A stretch of DNA of 64,000 nt, taken from Marinitoga piezophila KA3 (GTDB lineage: Bacteria > Thermotogota > Thermotogae > Petrotogales > Petrotogaceae). A program made the position numbers and the translations under genes. Below are positions 17,842 through 24,724 of this stretch, in pieces. Each line of letters opens with the position of its first letter. Position 1 is the stretch's first letter. The stretch covers positions 2,108,001-2,172,000 of the forward strand of contig NC_016751.1 of NCBI RefSeq assembly GCF_000255135.1, read 5' to 3'. The notes below the pieces were generated by a model. That model did not search any database and was not told the origin of the DNA. It saw nothing but the letters and a program-made list of their open reading frames with translations.

Positions 17842-17875
17842 AAAAAAAAGAATGAAGTGGAAATCCACTTCATTC
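17842..17875 (-). terminator. Terminator of the chemosensory operon
   Basis: An 11-bp stem (GAATGAAGTGG, AAAT loop, 17850-17875) followed on the minus strand by eight T. The stop codon of the chemoreceptor gene is inside the stem. Confidence 0.92.
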
Positions 17876-19159
17876 GATTTTTTTAGCCATATTAACAAGT
17901 TCATCAATGTTATTTTTTATTTCTTCGAGTGCTTCAAATGTTTGTTTTATTCCATCAAGAACACCTTTTATTAATGTTTTTGTTGAATTTGAGAAAGAAG
18001 ATAATGTATCGATGTTGTTTACAAAGCTTTCGACAACCTGATCAATAGAATCTAAGGAATTTTCAACGTTTGATAATTCTTTTAATGTTTTTTCTGAAAG
18101 CAATACGCTTGAGGTTATGCTGCTCTCAATGTTTTTTAAAACTTTTTCTGATTCTCTTGATGTTTTTTTAGCGTCATATGCAAGTTCGTTTATCATATCA
18201 GCGATTCTCGAAATACCCTCTCTGTCTATTTCTTCTTTACTTGTTTCGATTGATGAGTTTATTGAAAGTATTGAAACTGTTTCTGATATATCTTTGATTT
18301 TATAGTTTAAATCTGAAAGATTATTTATGAAATCTGCTATTTTCATTGTCATTTGAGTCATGTCCTGAATATTCAGGAAGAATGATTTTACATTGTTCAA
18401 AATAGAATTTAATTCGCTTCTTCCTTCTTCTATTGCAGATGCAAAGTTTTGAATTAATTCGTCAAGTTCATTTATATTTTTTTGCGTGTTTTTAGTAACA
18501 GATTCCATTTCAGCTGCAGCTGCACTGTTTTCAGCTATAAATGAAGCAACATTTGCAGAGAATTCTTCTATACTCTTTACCTGTTTTTTTATTGCCAGTG
18601 TTAGCCATTTTCCAAGATAATATGAAATAATAAAGAATATTACCATGAAGATTATAAATATGTTTAGTATATAATATCTGGTTTTTATTAAGTCAGCAAA
18701 TAATTCGCCATATGTTATTGCATGGGCAAGATAATATGTTTTTCCTTCTGAGGTGATTTTTACAAAGGATACATATCTTTTTTCACCTTCAAAGATATAT
18801 TCATATGTTCCTGCATCATTTTCTCTCATATATTTCCATAAATCATCAAGTTTTGCGTCTTTGACAATATGAATTCCTACTTTTGTCGGGTCGGTATGTA
18901 GTATTGCATATCCTTTTTCATCTATTACATAATAATATCCGGAGTTTTCTTTTGTGAATTCTTCTATAAAATAATCTTCTGTAATTTTTGAAATGTCTTT
19001 TATTGAATATCTTTCAATTTTCAATGAATACAAAAACGAATCCAGAATTTCTGTTCTTAAGTTGTTTGAGAATAAATCCCAGCTAATTATGAAAAAAGCA
19101 ACAAAGAATATGGCGAAAATCCCTAAAATGGCTAAAGAATACTTTAGTTCAAGTTTCAT
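17870..19159 (-). CDS. Chemoreceptor-like protein with single Cache domain and divergent signalling tip
   Basis: A 429-residue membrane receptor: TM1 (about 8-28), an extracytoplasmic single Cache-like domain (about 30-165, with YYYVIDEKGYAILHTDP), TM2 (about 170-192), then a long coiled coil. The cytoplasmic part can be aligned with the methyl-accepting signalling domain (ETVSILSINSSIETS in place of the usual TNLLALNAAIEAA), but the nearly invariant RGFAVVA segment after the tip is replaced by a poorly matching one (GISRIADM). So the CheA/CheW contact surface has diverged, perhaps in step with this operon's own coupling proteins. Last gene of the operon, two bases after the REC-GGDEF gene, with GAGGAGG as ribosome binding site. 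It probably provides the signal input. Confidence 0.82.
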   Translation of the reverse strand: MKLELKYSLAILGIFAIFFVAFFIISWDLFSNNLRTEILDSFLYSLKIERYSIKDISKITEDYFIEEFTKENSGYYYVIDEKGYAILHTDPTKVGIHIVKDAKLDDLWKYMRENDAGTYEYIFEGEKRYVSFVKITSEGKTYYLAHAITYGELFADLIKTRYYILNIFIIFMVIFFIISYYLGKWLTLAIKKQVKSIEEFSANVASFIAENSAAAAEMESVTKNTQKNINELDELIQNFASAIEEGRSELNSILNNVKSFFLNIQDMTQMTMKIADFINNLSDLNYKIKDISETVSILSINSSIETSKEEIDREGISRIADMINELAYDAKKTSRESEKVLKNIESSITSSVLLSEKTLKELSNVENSLDSIDQVVESFVNNIDTLSSFSNSTKTLIKGVLDGIKQTFEALEEIKNNIDELVNMAKKIE

Positions 19160-19161
19160 AT

Positions 19162-20562
19162 TTATTCCTCCTCAATAATTATTCTGTTTTTACCCTTTTT
19201 CTTGGCTCTGTATAATAATTTATCGGCAGTATTGATAAATATTGTTGCACTTTTATTTTGATAGTTACAGGCAACACCTGCACTAAATGTAACAGGAAGA
19301 TTTATACCTAAATCTTTCCAATTATAATTTCTTACAGATTCTAATATACGTTCCAGAGCTTTTTTGGCTTCGATGCAGGAGGTTCCCGGCATTAGTATTA
19401 AAAATTCTTCTCCGCCAAATCTACCGGCAAAATCATTTTCCCTCATTTCTGAATTTATTATTGTTGCAATATTTTTGAGAACTTTATCTCCTGTTACATG
19501 CCCATAAGTGTCATTTATTTTTTTGAAATCATCAATGTCGATCATTGCTATTGATAGTGGATAATTCTTTCTTCTAAATGTAATGAGAAATTCTTTTAAT
19601 TTGTCAAGTATGTTCTTTTTGTTGAGTAATCCTGTTAAACCATCATTTTCAGCTGCTGTTTTGTAATCATAGAAATTGTTTAATGTTTTGAATAATATAC
19701 CAAGCGTTTCTGATATCATATTCATAACATATACCATATTATGTTCATTTTTTACATTTTCAAAGAGAATTAATCCCTGTTCTATTTTGTTGTATTCAAT
19801 GTTAAAAACTGAATAATTGTCAGGCACTTTTGAAACGGCATCATCATACATTCCTTTTATTATCCATTCAGATGGTGTGGTAGGTTTTTTAAAATTCGAA
19901 AATAGAAAATCTTTTAAAACACTGCATGAGTAGTTTTTATCTTTTGAAAAGGAATACATTCTTCCAAAACTTGTAGAAATTAGCATAAAAAAGGCATTTT
20001 CAAAATTAAAAAATTCTTCAAGAATTAAATAAATCTCTCTCATTATATGTTCTTCATCGTCCATTTTTTCTACTAAATTTAATATCGATGATTTTATTAC
20101 TTCCATTTTTAAGGATTCTTCAAGAATATCAACTAACTCTCTAAACGGTTCCATTCTAAATTTATGAAATTCTCTTGTCCACTCAATTGAATAATTCCCA
20201 TCTTCAATGAACTCTTTGATTTTATTCATAAGTTCTTCTGGGTCAGCGTCTTTTCTTAAGAACATGTTTGCGCCGCTTTTTTTTGCCCAAAATTCATTAA
20301 TTGATTCATTTGCTCCTGTTAGAATTATAATTCCAACATTGGAAAATGCAGCATAGCTTCTTATAAATCTACAAAGATGAACTCCGTTCATTTGCGGCAT
20401 TACATAATCCGAAATTATAATATCAGGAAGAAAATCAAAAAATTTATTAATTCCTTCAAGTCCATTTTCAGCTACTTCAACATCATACCCATATTGTTCC
20501 AGACTTTTTTTTAAGAAAATACGCCATGAAATACTATCGTCAAGAACCAGTACTTTTTTCAT
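19162..20562 (-). CDS. Response regulator diguanylate cyclase (REC-GGDEF, WspR-like)
   Basis: Output protein of the chemosensory operon. Receiver domain at about 1-120 with Asp8-Asp9, phospho-acceptor Asp52 (IISDYVMP), Thr in ILTG and Lys in LRKD. A middle region (about 125-300) of unclear fold, perhaps GAF-like, then the GGDEF domain (about 305-466) with GGEEF at 383-387 and an RxxD inhibitory site (REND) five residues before it. It should make cyclic di-GMP when phosphorylated by the CheA of the operon. The order CheR, CheW, CheA-REC, CheB, REC-GGDEF, receptor resembles Wsp systems. It starts four bases after cheB with a GGGG ribosome site. Confidence 0.92.
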   Translation of the reverse strand: MKKVLVLDDSISWRIFLKKSLEQYGYDVEVAENGLEGINKFFDFLPDIIISDYVMPQMNGVHLCRFIRSYAAFSNVGIIILTGANESINEFWAKKSGANMFLRKDADPEELMNKIKEFIEDGNYSIEWTREFHKFRMEPFRELVDILEESLKMEVIKSSILNLVEKMDDEEHIMREIYLILEEFFNFENAFFMLISTSFGRMYSFSKDKNYSCSVLKDFLFSNFKKPTTPSEWIIKGMYDDAVSKVPDNYSVFNIEYNKIEQGLILFENVKNEHNMVYVMNMISETLGILFKTLNNFYDYKTAAENDGLTGLLNKKNILDKLKEFLITFRRKNYPLSIAMIDIDDFKKINDTYGHVTGDKVLKNIATIINSEMRENDFAGRFGGEEFLILMPGTSCIEAKKALERILESVRNYNWKDLGINLPVTFSAGVACNYQNKSATIFINTADKLLYRAKKKGKNRIIIEEE

Positions 20563-20566
20563 ACAA

Positions 20567-21109
20567 TCAACCCCTGTTTATTTTTAAAATAAGATTTTTA
20601 ATACCCTCTATATCTAATTTGTTGTATCTTTTGAGACTTCTCATTGCGGCATTTGTCATATATGGAAATTTCGCACGCTTTTGAATATATATATTTGCAT
20701 TTTTCTTTTCCAATACTTTTAAGCCATTTGTTCCATCCTGCCCCAATCCACCAAGGAGTATAAAATAAAAGTCATCATTTACAAAGCTTTCGCAACTCTT
20801 GAATAGATGGTTTATTGAAGGTGCAATGATATCCTGTGAATCAACTGCGGAAATTGTATTTTCATTTACAAAAATAATGTCTTTCCCGCCTTCTGGAATG
20901 TATATTCCAGCATTTAAGGAGGTTATGTTATTTATAATATATACTTTTTGTTTGGTGAAATCTTCAATAAAGTCCTTAAAGTTTTCCACCTGACTTGAAA
21001 GATTATGCATTGCAAGTACAACAGGTATTTTTAATTCTTCTTTTATATCAAATATCTTTTTTAATGTATTTGGTCCGCCTGCAGATGCACCTATTACAAT
21101 TTTTTTTAT
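20567..21109 (-). CDS. cheB: CheB methylesterase domain with a non-standard start codon
   Basis: A stand-alone receptor methylesterase/deamidase (about 180 residues). The catalytic triad is visible: Ser in GASAGG near the N-terminus, His in the LAMHN segment, and Asp in GGLGQDGTNG. There is no receiver domain. No ATG, GTG or TTG gives a full domain: the first ATG (21010) would remove the catalytic Ser. A strong GGAGGTG (21116-21122) precedes ATT (21112) and ATA (21109); starting at ATA gives the family-like N-terminus (M)KKIVIGASAGG, so I place the start there with reserve. The frame is continuous with the upstream CheA-REC gene except for one TAA, so readthrough to a fused protein is the alternative. 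WspF-like role: adaptation of the receptor. Confidence 0.82.
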   Translation of the reverse strand: MKKIVIGASAGGPNTLKKIFDIKEELKIPVVLAMHNLSSQVENFKDFIEDFTKQKVYIINNITSLNAGIYIPEGGKDIIFVNENTISAVDSQDIIAPSINHLFKSCESFVNDDFYFILLGGLGQDGTNGLKVLEKKNANIYIQKRAKFPYMTNAAMRSLKRYNKLDIEGIKNLILKINRG

Positions 21110-21112
21110 AAT

Positions 21113-22870
21113 TTACACCTCCAGAAATTTTTTTAATAATATTACGATTTTTTCTGGATCATCGCTTTTTGATAGATATGCATTTATTCCTAAATCAAGA
21201 CCTTTTTTGATATCTTCTGGTGAGTCTTTTGTACTTAACATAATAATTGGTAAATCTTTATTTCTATTTCTCAATATTCTGGCAACTTCATAACCTGAAA
21301 TTCCAGGAAGTTCAACATCTAATATTGCGGCATCATATCCTTTTTTCTCTATTGCTTCTTCCCCTGATTTTGCTTCAATTACTCTGAATCCAGCGTTTCT
21401 TATTAGTTTTGAAATAACAAATCTGGTTAATGTGGAGTCGTCTAAAACAAGAATAGTTTTTTCTTTGTTTGAAATGCGTTTTTTATTGATGTTTACTTCT
21501 TCAATTGAAATTATTGGAACGGGATAAGAAAATATATTTTTGGCAAACCCAACAATGTAATCTTTTTCATATGGTAGTACAAATGTTTCAAAATAACCTA
21601 TTATTTCATCTACAGCAATAGCTTTATTTCTTCCGGCGATTATAAATTTAAAATCACCTTCTTTAAAGTCTATTAAATCCATAATTTTTCCTTTGTAATT
21701 TATTTTTTCGTCATTAATAATTTCGGCATCTTTAAGGACTTCCTGGATTTCATTTGAAAAAATTGCAAAGATTTCATGTTGCCTTTTTACAATTAAAACT
21801 TTTTTTGAAGTTAATTCTGTTTTAAATGAAACTATAAATGTTGTTCCTTTTTGAGGAGTGCTTTTTACCTTTATAAATCCTTCTCTTGATTCTACAAAAG
21901 CTTTTACAGAATCAAGACCAACACCTCTTCCAGAAGACAAATCAGCAGTTTCTTTTGTTGAAAATCCAGATTCAAAAATTATTTCGTATGGATCTTCATA
22001 AGTAATTCCTTTTTCTTTTGCTTTTTCTTTGACTTTTTCTATATCTATACCTTTACCATCATCTGTGACCTCTATATATAAAAATTCGCCTTTTGAATAG
22101 CTTTTTATGGTTATTTTTCCGTATTCTTTTTTATTATTTTTAATTCTTTCCTCGGGTAATTCAATGCCATGTGCAATTGCGTTTTTTACAAGATGTACAA
22201 GAATATTTCTTAAAAATTTTGCGTCTTTTTTTCCTATTTTTTCATCTTCCACAAAAAGTTCTAAACGGACTTTCTTTTTATTAAAAACTGCTTCCTGATA
22301 AACAAGATTTTCAAAATCTTCAAGTACTTTGTTTAAAGAAATGAACTTCGAATCTTCTATAATTTTTTGTATGGATTTTCTAAGTTGTTTTAAATTTTTT
22401 AAAGCGCTATTTTTATTTCCCTGAATTAATAGATTTTCTGCTTTAAGTATTTCTTCGAAGATTTTTTCAAAGTAATCTATGTGAACTGAGTCAATGGAAA
22501 CTCTTCCAGATGAACTATCAATATCTTCTTTACCCTCAAGAATTGAAGAAAAATATTTAACTTCATCTGGAGTTAAATCCTTTTTTTTATTTACAATCTC
22601 AGCTGAAATCTTCATTATCCTGGCAACAAAATCTTCTTCCAATTCATTGTCTAAACGTTTTTTAAATTCACTTTCGAGAACATGCATAAAGCTCTGTATA
22701 TTATTTAATCCCACCAGCCCAGCAGAACCTTTTAGTGTATGAAAGATTCTATGTAAATCCTTTATTATAATGGGATCATGAGTTTCAAGATATTTTTTCA
22801 ATAATTCAATAGCTTCGTTTAATCGTTCTTCCATTTCATCAAAATATATCTGAGAAAAATCCATTTCCAT
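21113..22870 (-). CDS. cheA: Hybrid CheA kinase with C-terminal receiver (WspE-like)
   Basis: The kinase of the chemosensory operon, cytosolic, 585 residues. Domains: Hpt (about 1-110) with phospho-acceptor His44 in FHTLKG; dimerisation helices (about 125-195); CheA-type ATPase (about 200-355) with LVKNAIAHGIELPEER, DDGKGID and SGRGVGLDSV; CheW-like coupling domain (about 360-460); receiver (about 468-585) with phospho-acceptor Asp in AILDVELPG. There is no separate P2 docking domain. The attached receiver may act as a phosphate sink, as proposed for hybrid CheA proteins, while the REC-GGDEF protein is the output. Starts five bases after the CheW-like gene with GGAGTGA. Its stop is followed directly, in frame, by the CheB domain. 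Confidence 0.93.
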   Translation of the reverse strand: MEMDFSQIYFDEMEERLNEAIELLKKYLETHDPIIIKDLHRIFHTLKGSAGLVGLNNIQSFMHVLESEFKKRLDNELEEDFVARIMKISAEIVNKKKDLTPDEVKYFSSILEGKEDIDSSSGRVSIDSVHIDYFEKIFEEILKAENLLIQGNKNSALKNLKQLRKSIQKIIEDSKFISLNKVLEDFENLVYQEAVFNKKKVRLELFVEDEKIGKKDAKFLRNILVHLVKNAIAHGIELPEERIKNNKKEYGKITIKSYSKGEFLYIEVTDDGKGIDIEKVKEKAKEKGITYEDPYEIIFESGFSTKETADLSSGRGVGLDSVKAFVESREGFIKVKSTPQKGTTFIVSFKTELTSKKVLIVKRQHEIFAIFSNEIQEVLKDAEIINDEKINYKGKIMDLIDFKEGDFKFIIAGRNKAIAVDEIIGYFETFVLPYEKDYIVGFAKNIFSYPVPIISIEEVNINKKRISNKEKTILVLDDSTLTRFVISKLIRNAGFRVIEAKSGEEAIEKKGYDAAILDVELPGISGYEVARILRNRNKDLPIIMLSTKDSPEDIKKGLDLGINAYLSKSDDPEKIVILLKKFLEV

Positions 22871-22875
22871 TTATA

Positions 22876-23619
22876 TCACTCCAGAATTTCATATATATTT
22901 TTGCCAACTTTTAAGTACTTTTTATTCTTTTCATCTGATATAACTTCACCATTTGTTGTCTGGATATTTTTACATAAAAGGCTAAAACCTTTTTTTATAA
23001 CGAGCCATTTAAATTCTTCGTCAGTTTTCAATACAGGGAAAATTTCATTTTTATATTCAACAAATCCGTCAAATTCTTTAAATGAAAAAGGGGCAAATTT
23101 TTCAATACCGGAAATATTAAGTATTTTGTATCTTTCAACAGCATATTTGCCATCTATAATAAAGAAATCCTGTAATAATTTTTGATGTGTCCCTCTTTTA
23201 ATTTTTCTGTTTTTTACTATTACGTCTGGCATATCCTGTTTTAATGCATTTTCAATATTAAATACAAGTATATCTTCCCCTTCGTCTTCAAAATATCCGG
23301 AATATATTTTCATTTCAGGGAATAATTCAAGCATTTTTTCAGAAATAATGTGCACTTTGTCGATTTTTGTTTTTTTTATTATTGAGGTTACGCCAAAAGC
23401 CATTTTTTCATATATTAGAAAGATTTTTAAAACGAGCTTTTCTTCCAGCGGAAGGGTTACAACAGGGTATAAATTCCCGTTAAATTCTGAAAAACCTATA
23501 AACTGTTTTCCTGTATCCTCAGGGATAAAAGATGTTGAAATCCCTATGATATTATTTTCGATAGCTATTTTTCGTGTTCTGTTTTCAATATCCTTTATTT
23601 CACATATATAATATTCCAT
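22876..23619 (-). CDS. Tandem CheW-like coupling protein
   Basis: A 247-residue protein that seems to hold two degenerate CheW-like beta folds: the first (about 1-130) with FIGFSEFNGNLYPVV in place of the usual GLINLRGxxxPV segment, the second (about 145-247) with EFDGFVEYKNEIFPVL. CheW proteins connect receptors to CheA. In Wsp systems two separate CheW proteins exist (WspB and WspD); here they may be fused. The assignment rests on pattern and on its place between cheR and cheA, not on strong residue identity. Ribosome site GAGGTG. Confidence 0.72.
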   Translation of the reverse strand: MEYYICEIKDIENRTRKIAIENNIIGISTSFIPEDTGKQFIGFSEFNGNLYPVVTLPLEEKLVLKIFLIYEKMAFGVTSIIKKTKIDKVHIISEKMLELFPEMKIYSGYFEDEGEDILVFNIENALKQDMPDVIVKNRKIKRGTHQKLLQDFFIIDGKYAVERYKILNISGIEKFAPFSFKEFDGFVEYKNEIFPVLKTDEEFKWLVIKKGFSLLCKNIQTTNGEVISDEKNKKYLKVGKNIYEILE

Positions 23620-23629
23620 CTATAACACC

Positions 23630-24724
23630 TCAACTATTTTTTAAATGCCATAATTCTGGATCGTCAGGATTTAAATATATAGCTTTTGATATTGAATCTT
23701 TAAAATTTTTTCCAAGCCTTAATTCTACAAAACCTTTGTATTTCCATAAAAGATAATTTAAAGGATATTTTTCAATAGCATGTGAGATTCTTTCATAGGC
23801 CATAATGAAATTTTCTTTATTAAGCATTTCTTCAATTATTTCAAGCTCTTCTTCTAAAGTAACATGAGTATATGTTTTTAATATTTTGTCTTTTAAAATG
23901 TTTTTTTCAATATTATTTTTTGAAGGTTGTAAATTCTTTTTTTCCGGATATTTTAAGTTGATTTTATTTTTAAATAGCGAAGTTTTAGTATTCTTTTTTA
24001 ATATTTTATTTTTTGAATTTTTCCACAGAACAATATCATCATAAAATTCCGGTTCAAATAATTCCAACAATTCTGGATAAAATTCCCCTTTACCCAGAAT
24101 TAAATAACCATCTTTTTTTAATAGTAACTTTAAATCATTTAAAATTTTGCTAATTTGATATTCTTCAAAATATATTAAAACTCGACGAATAAATATAATG
24201 TCATATGTTTTCGAATTATCCTTTGCTTCCAATATTATATTTCTTTGCATAAAGGATATATCCCTTTTATAATTATTTTTTACATAAAAAAAGTTATCTT
24301 TTTTTTCAAAATATTTTTCAATTAAATCCTTTTTAAGAAATCTAACACTCCAGAATTTGTATTCCCCTTTTATTGCCTGTTGGATGCGTTCATAAGATAA
24401 ATCAACACCTTTTATGGAATAATTTATTCCAGAATCATTTAATATAAAAGACATTGTATAAACCTCTTCTCCCCTTGAACAACCAAGGCTTAAAATATCC
24501 CAATTATTTTTTGTCTGGATTTTTCTTTTTAATATATTCCATAGATTTTCATCTCTGAAAAAATAGGATTCTCCAATGGTATAATTTTCAAGAATTATAT
24601 TTTCCAGTATTTCTTCGTCCAATTCTCCTAAATATTGAATAATTTTTTTTACATTTTGAAATTTTTTTTCATCAAAACTTAAGCTATATTTATTTATTAT
24701 ATGTTTTAATTTAGTATCAATCAT
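23630..24724 (-). CDS. cheR: CheR methyltransferase with C-terminal TPR-like region (WspC-like)
   Basis: Transfers methyl groups from S-adenosylmethionine to glutamates of the receptor. Seen: N-terminal helical domain, ESYFFRDENLW (the T/S-xFFRD motif of CheR), SAM-binding SLGCSRGEEVYTM near residue 80, and FIRRVLIYFEE, matching the family FCRNVLIYF. After residue about 230 a Lys/Asn-rich linker leads to a TPR-like pair of helices (about 290-364), as in WspC. It is the first gene of the operon; start supported by AGAGGGGG. No methylatable heptads could be confirmed in the receptor. Confidence 0.9.
   Translation of the reverse strand: MIDTKLKHIINKYSLSFDEKKFQNVKKIIQYLGELDEEILENIILENYTIGESYFFRDENLWNILKRKIQTKNNWDILSLGCSRGEEVYTMSFILNDSGINYSIKGVDLSYERIQQAIKGEYKFWSVRFLKKDLIEKYFEKKDNFFYVKNNYKRDISFMQRNIILEAKDNSKTYDIIFIRRVLIYFEEYQISKILNDLKLLLKKDGYLILGKGEFYPELLELFEPEFYDDIVLWKNSKNKILKKNTKTSLFKNKINLKYPEKKNLQPSKNNIEKNILKDKILKTYTHVTLEEELEIIEEMLNKENFIMAYERISHAIEKYPLNYLLWKYKGFVELRLGKNFKDSISKAIYLNPDDPELWHLKNS

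Follow-up and report, generated by a model that had tools for sequence, protein, structure and literature searches.

The cheB gene of a chemosensory operon of Marinitoga piezophila KA3 very probably encodes a complete methylesterase that has no receiver domain and that would be translated from a weak, conserved start of the AUU/AUA type (most likely AUA) behind an extended Shine-Dalgarno sequence (SD). The gene lies in the 64,000-nucleotide stretch of DNA that was analysed (the window; contig NC_016751.1, positions 2,108,001 to 2,172,000). The positions given below are those of the window, except where contig 2 or a locus is named.

Junction, reading frame and domain of cheB

The features that define the cheB start are the following.

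20567-21112, minus strand: cheB frame, methylesterase domain alone, 181 codons from ATT (open frame, Pfam and 3sft alignment)
21113-22870, minus strand: cheA-REC hybrid kinase gene, whose stop TAA (21113-21115) touches the cheB ATT (Pfam Hpt, HATPase_c and Response_reg)
21107-21109, minus strand: ATA, the most likely cheB start, 8 nt past GGAGG (spacing and alignment position)
21110-21112, minus strand: ATT, the alternative cheB start, 5 nt past GGAGG, the commoner codon in relatives but poorly spaced
21114-21122, minus strand: extended SD GGAGGTGTA, core GGAGG at 21118-21122, complementary to the 16S 3' end
21008-21010, minus strand: first in-frame ATG of cheB, past the catalytic Ser and without an SD (the best SD score of the canonical starts is 5)

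The minus-strand sequence across the junction is CTG GAG GTG TAA / ATT ATA AAA AAA ATT GTA ATA GGT GCA TCT GCA GGC GGA. The sequence-only reading had placed cheB in the frame of the CheA-REC gene with a single TAA between them, and this was confirmed on the junction. Its further claims, that a complete CheB domain lacks an ATG, GTG or TTG and needs ATT 21112 or ATA 21109, that a GGAGG-type SD stands 5 and 8 nt before these codons, and that the first ATG comes after the catalytic Ser, were likewise borne out: the frame contains no ATG, GTG or TTG from the cheA-REC TAA down to ATG 21010, the Pfam domain runs from residue 5, the GGAGG is found at 21118-21122, and Ser10 of the alignment with 3sft lies upstream of that ATG. 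The ATG is placed one residue ahead of the catalytic His, and a start there would drop the Ser together with the first strand of the domain.

The SD of cheB has a score of 19, with a spacing of 8 to the ATA. The 16S 3' end in the M. piezophila genome was found to be GGATCACCTCCTTTCT, a standard anti-SD that pairs with the cheB SD, and SDs resembling GGAGGTGAT can thus pair along their full length. A hairpin was predicted over the SD and start (21070-21140, minus strand; -15.7 kcal/mol, z -2.8). It was not seen at the cheB start of five relatives (z -0.7 to 0), and a conserved RNA hairpin was dropped as a candidate, being present in the M. piezophila genome only.

The Pfam family CheB_methylest matched residues 5-173 of the product at profile positions 1-172 of 174 (E 1.3e-24). 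Since the match begins at profile position 1, translation must begin at residue 2 or immediately before it to give a complete domain. The product aligns with the catalytic domain of Thermotoga maritima CheB (3sft), in which Ser10, His36 and Asp126 match the catalytic triad; the roles of these residues we take from general knowledge of CheB. The catalytic domain and the triad are shared with the classical REC-methylesterase form of CheB, such as that of T. maritima, but the Marinitoga protein is devoid of the N-terminal receiver. In the 181-codon frame the esterase domain begins at residue 5 and the receiver sits on CheA instead; the CheB of the relatives likewise has no receiver domain.

The cheB start in other Marinitoga species

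Seven genomes of the genus were sampled, and five besides M. piezophila carry a matching cheB, with 49-54% protein identity. In all five, ATT follows an extended SD (score 18-21) at a distance of 7-8 nt, and an ATG, GTG or TTG at usable spacing was found in none of them. In genomes G001, G003 and G006 the start region reads GGG GAT GAT ATT ATT (C/T)TA AA(A/G) GT, and no canonical start precedes the GASAGG motif, apart from a GTG immediately before the motif in G003. G002 and G005 do contain an ATG in frame, but it falls within the SD (GGAGATGAT and GGGGATGAT; spacing -1), and their ATT has a spacing of 8. The overlap with the SD was located at 1485-1495 of locus L003 and 1489-1496 of locus L006, and its spacing argues against this ATG as the true cheB start. 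In distant relatives of the same class, cheB has an ATG at a spacing of 6-9. By the sequence-only reading, a rare start would be refuted if all close relatives had an ATG here; the junction was compared in the five Marinitoga genomes and no usable ATG appeared. The comparison of these sequences confirmed that the lack of a usable canonical start, recurring at about 50% protein identity, goes beyond chance. In the assembly of Marinitoga lauensis (L003, 1-1480), cheA is split over three frames, probably as a result of long-read indel errors.

The differences among all pairs of cheB sequences over codons 3-34 were 143, 45 and 220 at codon positions 1, 2 and 3, respectively. This pattern, found upstream of the first ATG, indicates that the stretch is translated.

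Three explanations other than a rare start were weighed against these data, and each of them appears very improbable. The second alternative of the sequence-only reading, readthrough of the cheA-REC TAA, here taken as an occasional event that is the sole source of CheB and joins it to CheA-REC so that the receiver controls the esterase, has in its favour that in M. piezophila the two frames are in phase and separated by one TAA. However, the cheB frame differs from that of cheA in all five relatives (G001, G002, G003, G005 and G006): G001, G003 and G006 have a TGA at the end of cheA and a cheB outside its frame, in G002 the cheA stop precedes cheB and is out of phase with it, and in G005 cheB overlaps cheA in a different phase. 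Because the phase varies among species, stop readthrough is not a conserved mechanism. Moreover, a strong SD at the proper spacing for a separate start is kept in 6/6 species, and readthrough would need none. On the compared sequences, a conserved readthrough fusion is excluded for the genus, and such a fusion is unlikely in M. piezophila itself. Thus, where the sequence-only reading had left the choice between a rare start and readthrough, the rare start was supported by the ATT of 5/5 relatives and the readthrough was not, as the phase is not conserved; the scarcity of CheB that it had attached to a rare start would follow from published reporters. Initiation at ATG 21010, the first canonical start and the choice of gene finders, would give a shorter CheB with an untranslated upstream frame, and its chance is equally slight: this ATG has no SD, its use would remove the catalytic Ser and first strand from a domain whose Pfam match begins at profile position 1, and codons 3-34 are under protein-coding constraint. 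It is even harder to accept that a sequencing error hides a true ATG or that cheB is a pseudogene. A single A-to-G difference would indeed turn the ATA into ATG, but five relatives, sequenced separately, are also without a usable canonical start, the frame is intact and the catalytic residues are conserved.

Once a rare start is preferred, ATA 21109 is likelier than ATT 21112 by spacing and homology. In the M. piezophila genome 576 genes start at a spacing of 7 from GGAGG, 353 at 8 and only 66 at 5. In addition, ATA 21109 aligns with the ATG of L008, L010 and L011 and with the ATT of L002-L005. A start at ATT 21112-21110, one codon before the ATA (21109-21107), would leave the mechanism unchanged, and it is a possible though less favoured choice, as ATT is the commonest AUH start (AUU, AUC or AUA) within the genus; against it, a spacing of 5 is far less used than 8, and the codon aligned with the ATG of the distant relatives is ATA and not ATT.

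Other genes with AUH starts

Genes with a strong SD and no SD-supported canonical start were screened for in 2.06 Mb of the M. piezophila genome. AUH-like behaviour was displayed by only a handful of 1,893 gene-like frames. Under the strict screen, AUH was the codon with the best SD in 7 of the 20 genes without an SD-supported canonical start, against 2.9 expected (p 0.019), which is a modest genome-wide enrichment. A looser count gave 17 ATT against 3.8, at positions that are not independent.

Five families were compared in the other Marinitoga species: cheB, infC, mutS, a FabK-like nitronate monooxygenase and a protein of no known family. M. piezophila was omitted as a safeguard against ascertainment. 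The codon 7-9 nt past the SD was AUH in 29/29 sequences and ATG in 0/29, the species being related and not independent. In the same set, the codon before was AUH in 10/29 and the codon after in 3/29. The four families besides cheB, and five further candidates (strong SD with AUH), are located as follows.

contig 2, 1840124-1840669, plus strand: infC (loci L049-L069), ATT at spacing 7 in 7/7 Marinitoga
contig 2, 251039-253483, minus strand: mutS (L263-L269), ATT, ATC or ATA at spacing 7 behind GAAGGTGAT in 7/7 Marinitoga
contig 2, 764474-765562, plus strand: FabK-like nitronate monooxygenase, Pfam NMO (L190-L209), ATT or ATA in 7/7 Marinitoga
contig 2, 1841315-1841770, minus strand: small protein of no known family near infC, probably membrane-anchored (L284-L290), ATT or ATC in 7/7 Marinitoga
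contig 2, 953227-954627, minus strand: candidate, GGDEF-type protein (ATA)
contig 2, 8482-9471, plus strand: candidate, phoH (ATT)
contig 2, 1145041-1145838, minus strand: candidate, patatin-like protein
contig 2, 233740-234453, minus strand: candidate, second GGDEF-type protein
contig 2, 166340-166843, plus strand: candidate, unknown protein

The mutS codon keeps its AT while its third base, which is never G, and the codons on either side vary; in other genera mutS has ATG, GTG or TTG at the matching spacing. Around the ATT of the small protein the neighbouring codons also vary. In both genes this variation around the AT-H codon looks like that of a start codon held away from AUG. Elsewhere in the order, infC mostly has ATA or ATC. 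The nitronate monooxygenase has ATA at spacing 7 in four g11 genomes and ATC at spacing 8 in one g9 genome outside Marinitoga, and in other genera ATG or a canonical codon that abuts the SD. Taken from these alignments, at least five Marinitoga genes appear to keep AUH starts, and probably others do too.

Two further candidates of the screen were not sustained in the relatives. One, tsaE (contig 2, 472315-472824, minus strand; L220-L226), was rejected, as its relatives start upstream at CTG or TTG; a CTG start seems to be used in three Marinitoga including M. piezophila, and TTG in four. A TtcA-like gene was ambiguous, with ATG, GTG or TTG three codons later in five species.

That AUH starts are common to at least five genes could also be explained if an extra initiator tRNA reading AUU made AUH an ordinary start in Marinitoga, with no down-regulation. 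This explanation is improbable, since AUH starts stay rare and are paired with strong extended SDs. In 2.06 Mb of the M. piezophila genome, a search for tRNAs yielded two initiator-type tRNAs (CAU) and one tRNA-Ile (GAU), all of them ordinary, and none that combines initiator-like features with an Ile anticodon.

Known systems of this kind were used for comparison. In Staphylococcus aureus, AUH starts are described for infC (AUA), cvfC1 (AUU), ccpN (AUA) and, in some strains, citZ (AUA); for infC, cvfC1 and ccpN the SD is reported to be extended, and the non-canonical start of ccpN is conserved in Bacillus subtilis (PMC13009471). With its strong extended SD, interspecies conservation and lack of a usable canonical start, cheB fits the class of conserved AUH starts. 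It shares the conserved AUH behind an SD with infC, which has AUU in E. coli, with autoregulation, AUA in S. aureus and ATT in M. piezophila. Unlike infC, cheB encodes no translation factor, lies within an operon and touches the upstream stop; CheB is not expected to regulate its own start. The non-canonical start, extended SD and interspecies conservation are also common to Marinitoga cheB and to staphylococcal cvfC1, ccpN and citZ, but the Marinitoga set belongs to a different phylum and comprises different and more numerous genes, mutS among them. E. coli pcnB shares an AUU start on an ordinary enzyme gene, which limits the amount of the enzyme as reported in PMC13009471 (citing Binns and Masters 2002); the gene and its context are unrelated to cheB. 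A literature search whose coverage lay mostly outside subscription journals returned no paper on AUH starts in Thermotogota. AUH starts as such are already known, and what is unexpected is how many genes, and which ones, make up the set within a single genus.

Genome annotation generally takes ATG, GTG and TTG alone. Limited in this way, it truncates AUH genes or assigns them a false start within the SD. In-frame ATG or GTG codons inside the SD (GGAGATGAT, GGGGTGA) act as such a trap for gene finders, being canonical at a spacing of -1 (L003, L006, L285, L286 and L288).

Putative control of the CheB level and the chemosensory operon

The extended SD at the end of cheA-REC would set the AUA or AUU codon in the ribosomal P site, and ribosomes finishing cheA-REC could feed this start. 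In 6/6 Marinitoga species the cheB start was found to overlap the cheA stop or to lie no more than about 20 nt from it, and coupling of cheB translation to that of cheA is therefore likely. It has been argued that the coupling of cheA with cheB compensates noise in expression (PMC2716512).

Inefficient initiation at AUH would keep CheB scarce relative to CheA and CheR. In poor medium, S. aureus reporters of cvfC1, ccpN and citZ reached about 10% of the output of their AUG variants (PMC13009471). By analogy with the published AUU and AUA reporters, a low CheB yield per CheA is a reasonable inference, and weak AUH starts probably limit the amount of protein from these Marinitoga genes in general. 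As the receiver missing from CheB sits on CheA, it may be speculated that the amount of the esterase is controlled rather than its phosphorylation.

In E. coli, IF3 rejects start codons of the AUH type (literature summarised in PMC2268962). By extension, IF3 could set the CheB level through its rejection of the weak codon. A true start-codon regulon in Marinitoga, in which cheB, mutS, the FabK-like oxidase, infC and others depend on AUH with an output that tracks IF3 activity, is a tentative proposal, and one that may well turn out otherwise. If it existed, translation fidelity would set mismatch repair, lipid metabolism and chemosensory adaptation together. The Marinitoga AUH genes provide aligned natural sites for asking whether IF3 controls a gene set, and the conservation of AUH starts in at least five genes of one genus, mutS included, suggests that weak starts are a commoner regulatory device than the textbook cases imply.

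The operon spans 17870-24724 and contains a receptor, REC-GGDEF, CheB, CheA-REC, an unmatched protein and CheR-TPR. Besides cheB and cheA-REC, its genes are the following.

17870-19159, minus strand: membrane receptor whose MCP signalling domain is weakly matched (Pfam MCPsignal, 32.4 bits, slightly below the cut-off)
19162-20562, minus strand: REC-GGDEF response regulator, a WspR-like output (Pfam Response_reg and GGDEF)
22876-23619, minus strand: protein in the CheW position, matched by neither Pfam nor NCBIfam
23630-24724, minus strand: CheR methyltransferase, WspC-like, ending in a TPR-like region at the C terminus (Pfam CheR E 1.9e-34, TPR_17 weak)

The receptor, CheR-TPR (its TPR match being weak), CheA-REC, CheB and REC-GGDEF are shared with Wsp-type operons, which serve an alternative cellular function. 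In contrast to the Wsp system, which has two CheW proteins, no match to the CheW family was found in this operon, and CheB carries no receiver. CheR-TPR proteins are described in PMC3447774 as typical of pathways with alternative functions. A second CheB of the M. piezophila genome is encoded by a 354-residue frame (contig 2, at 1644634), which has the length of the two-domain form.
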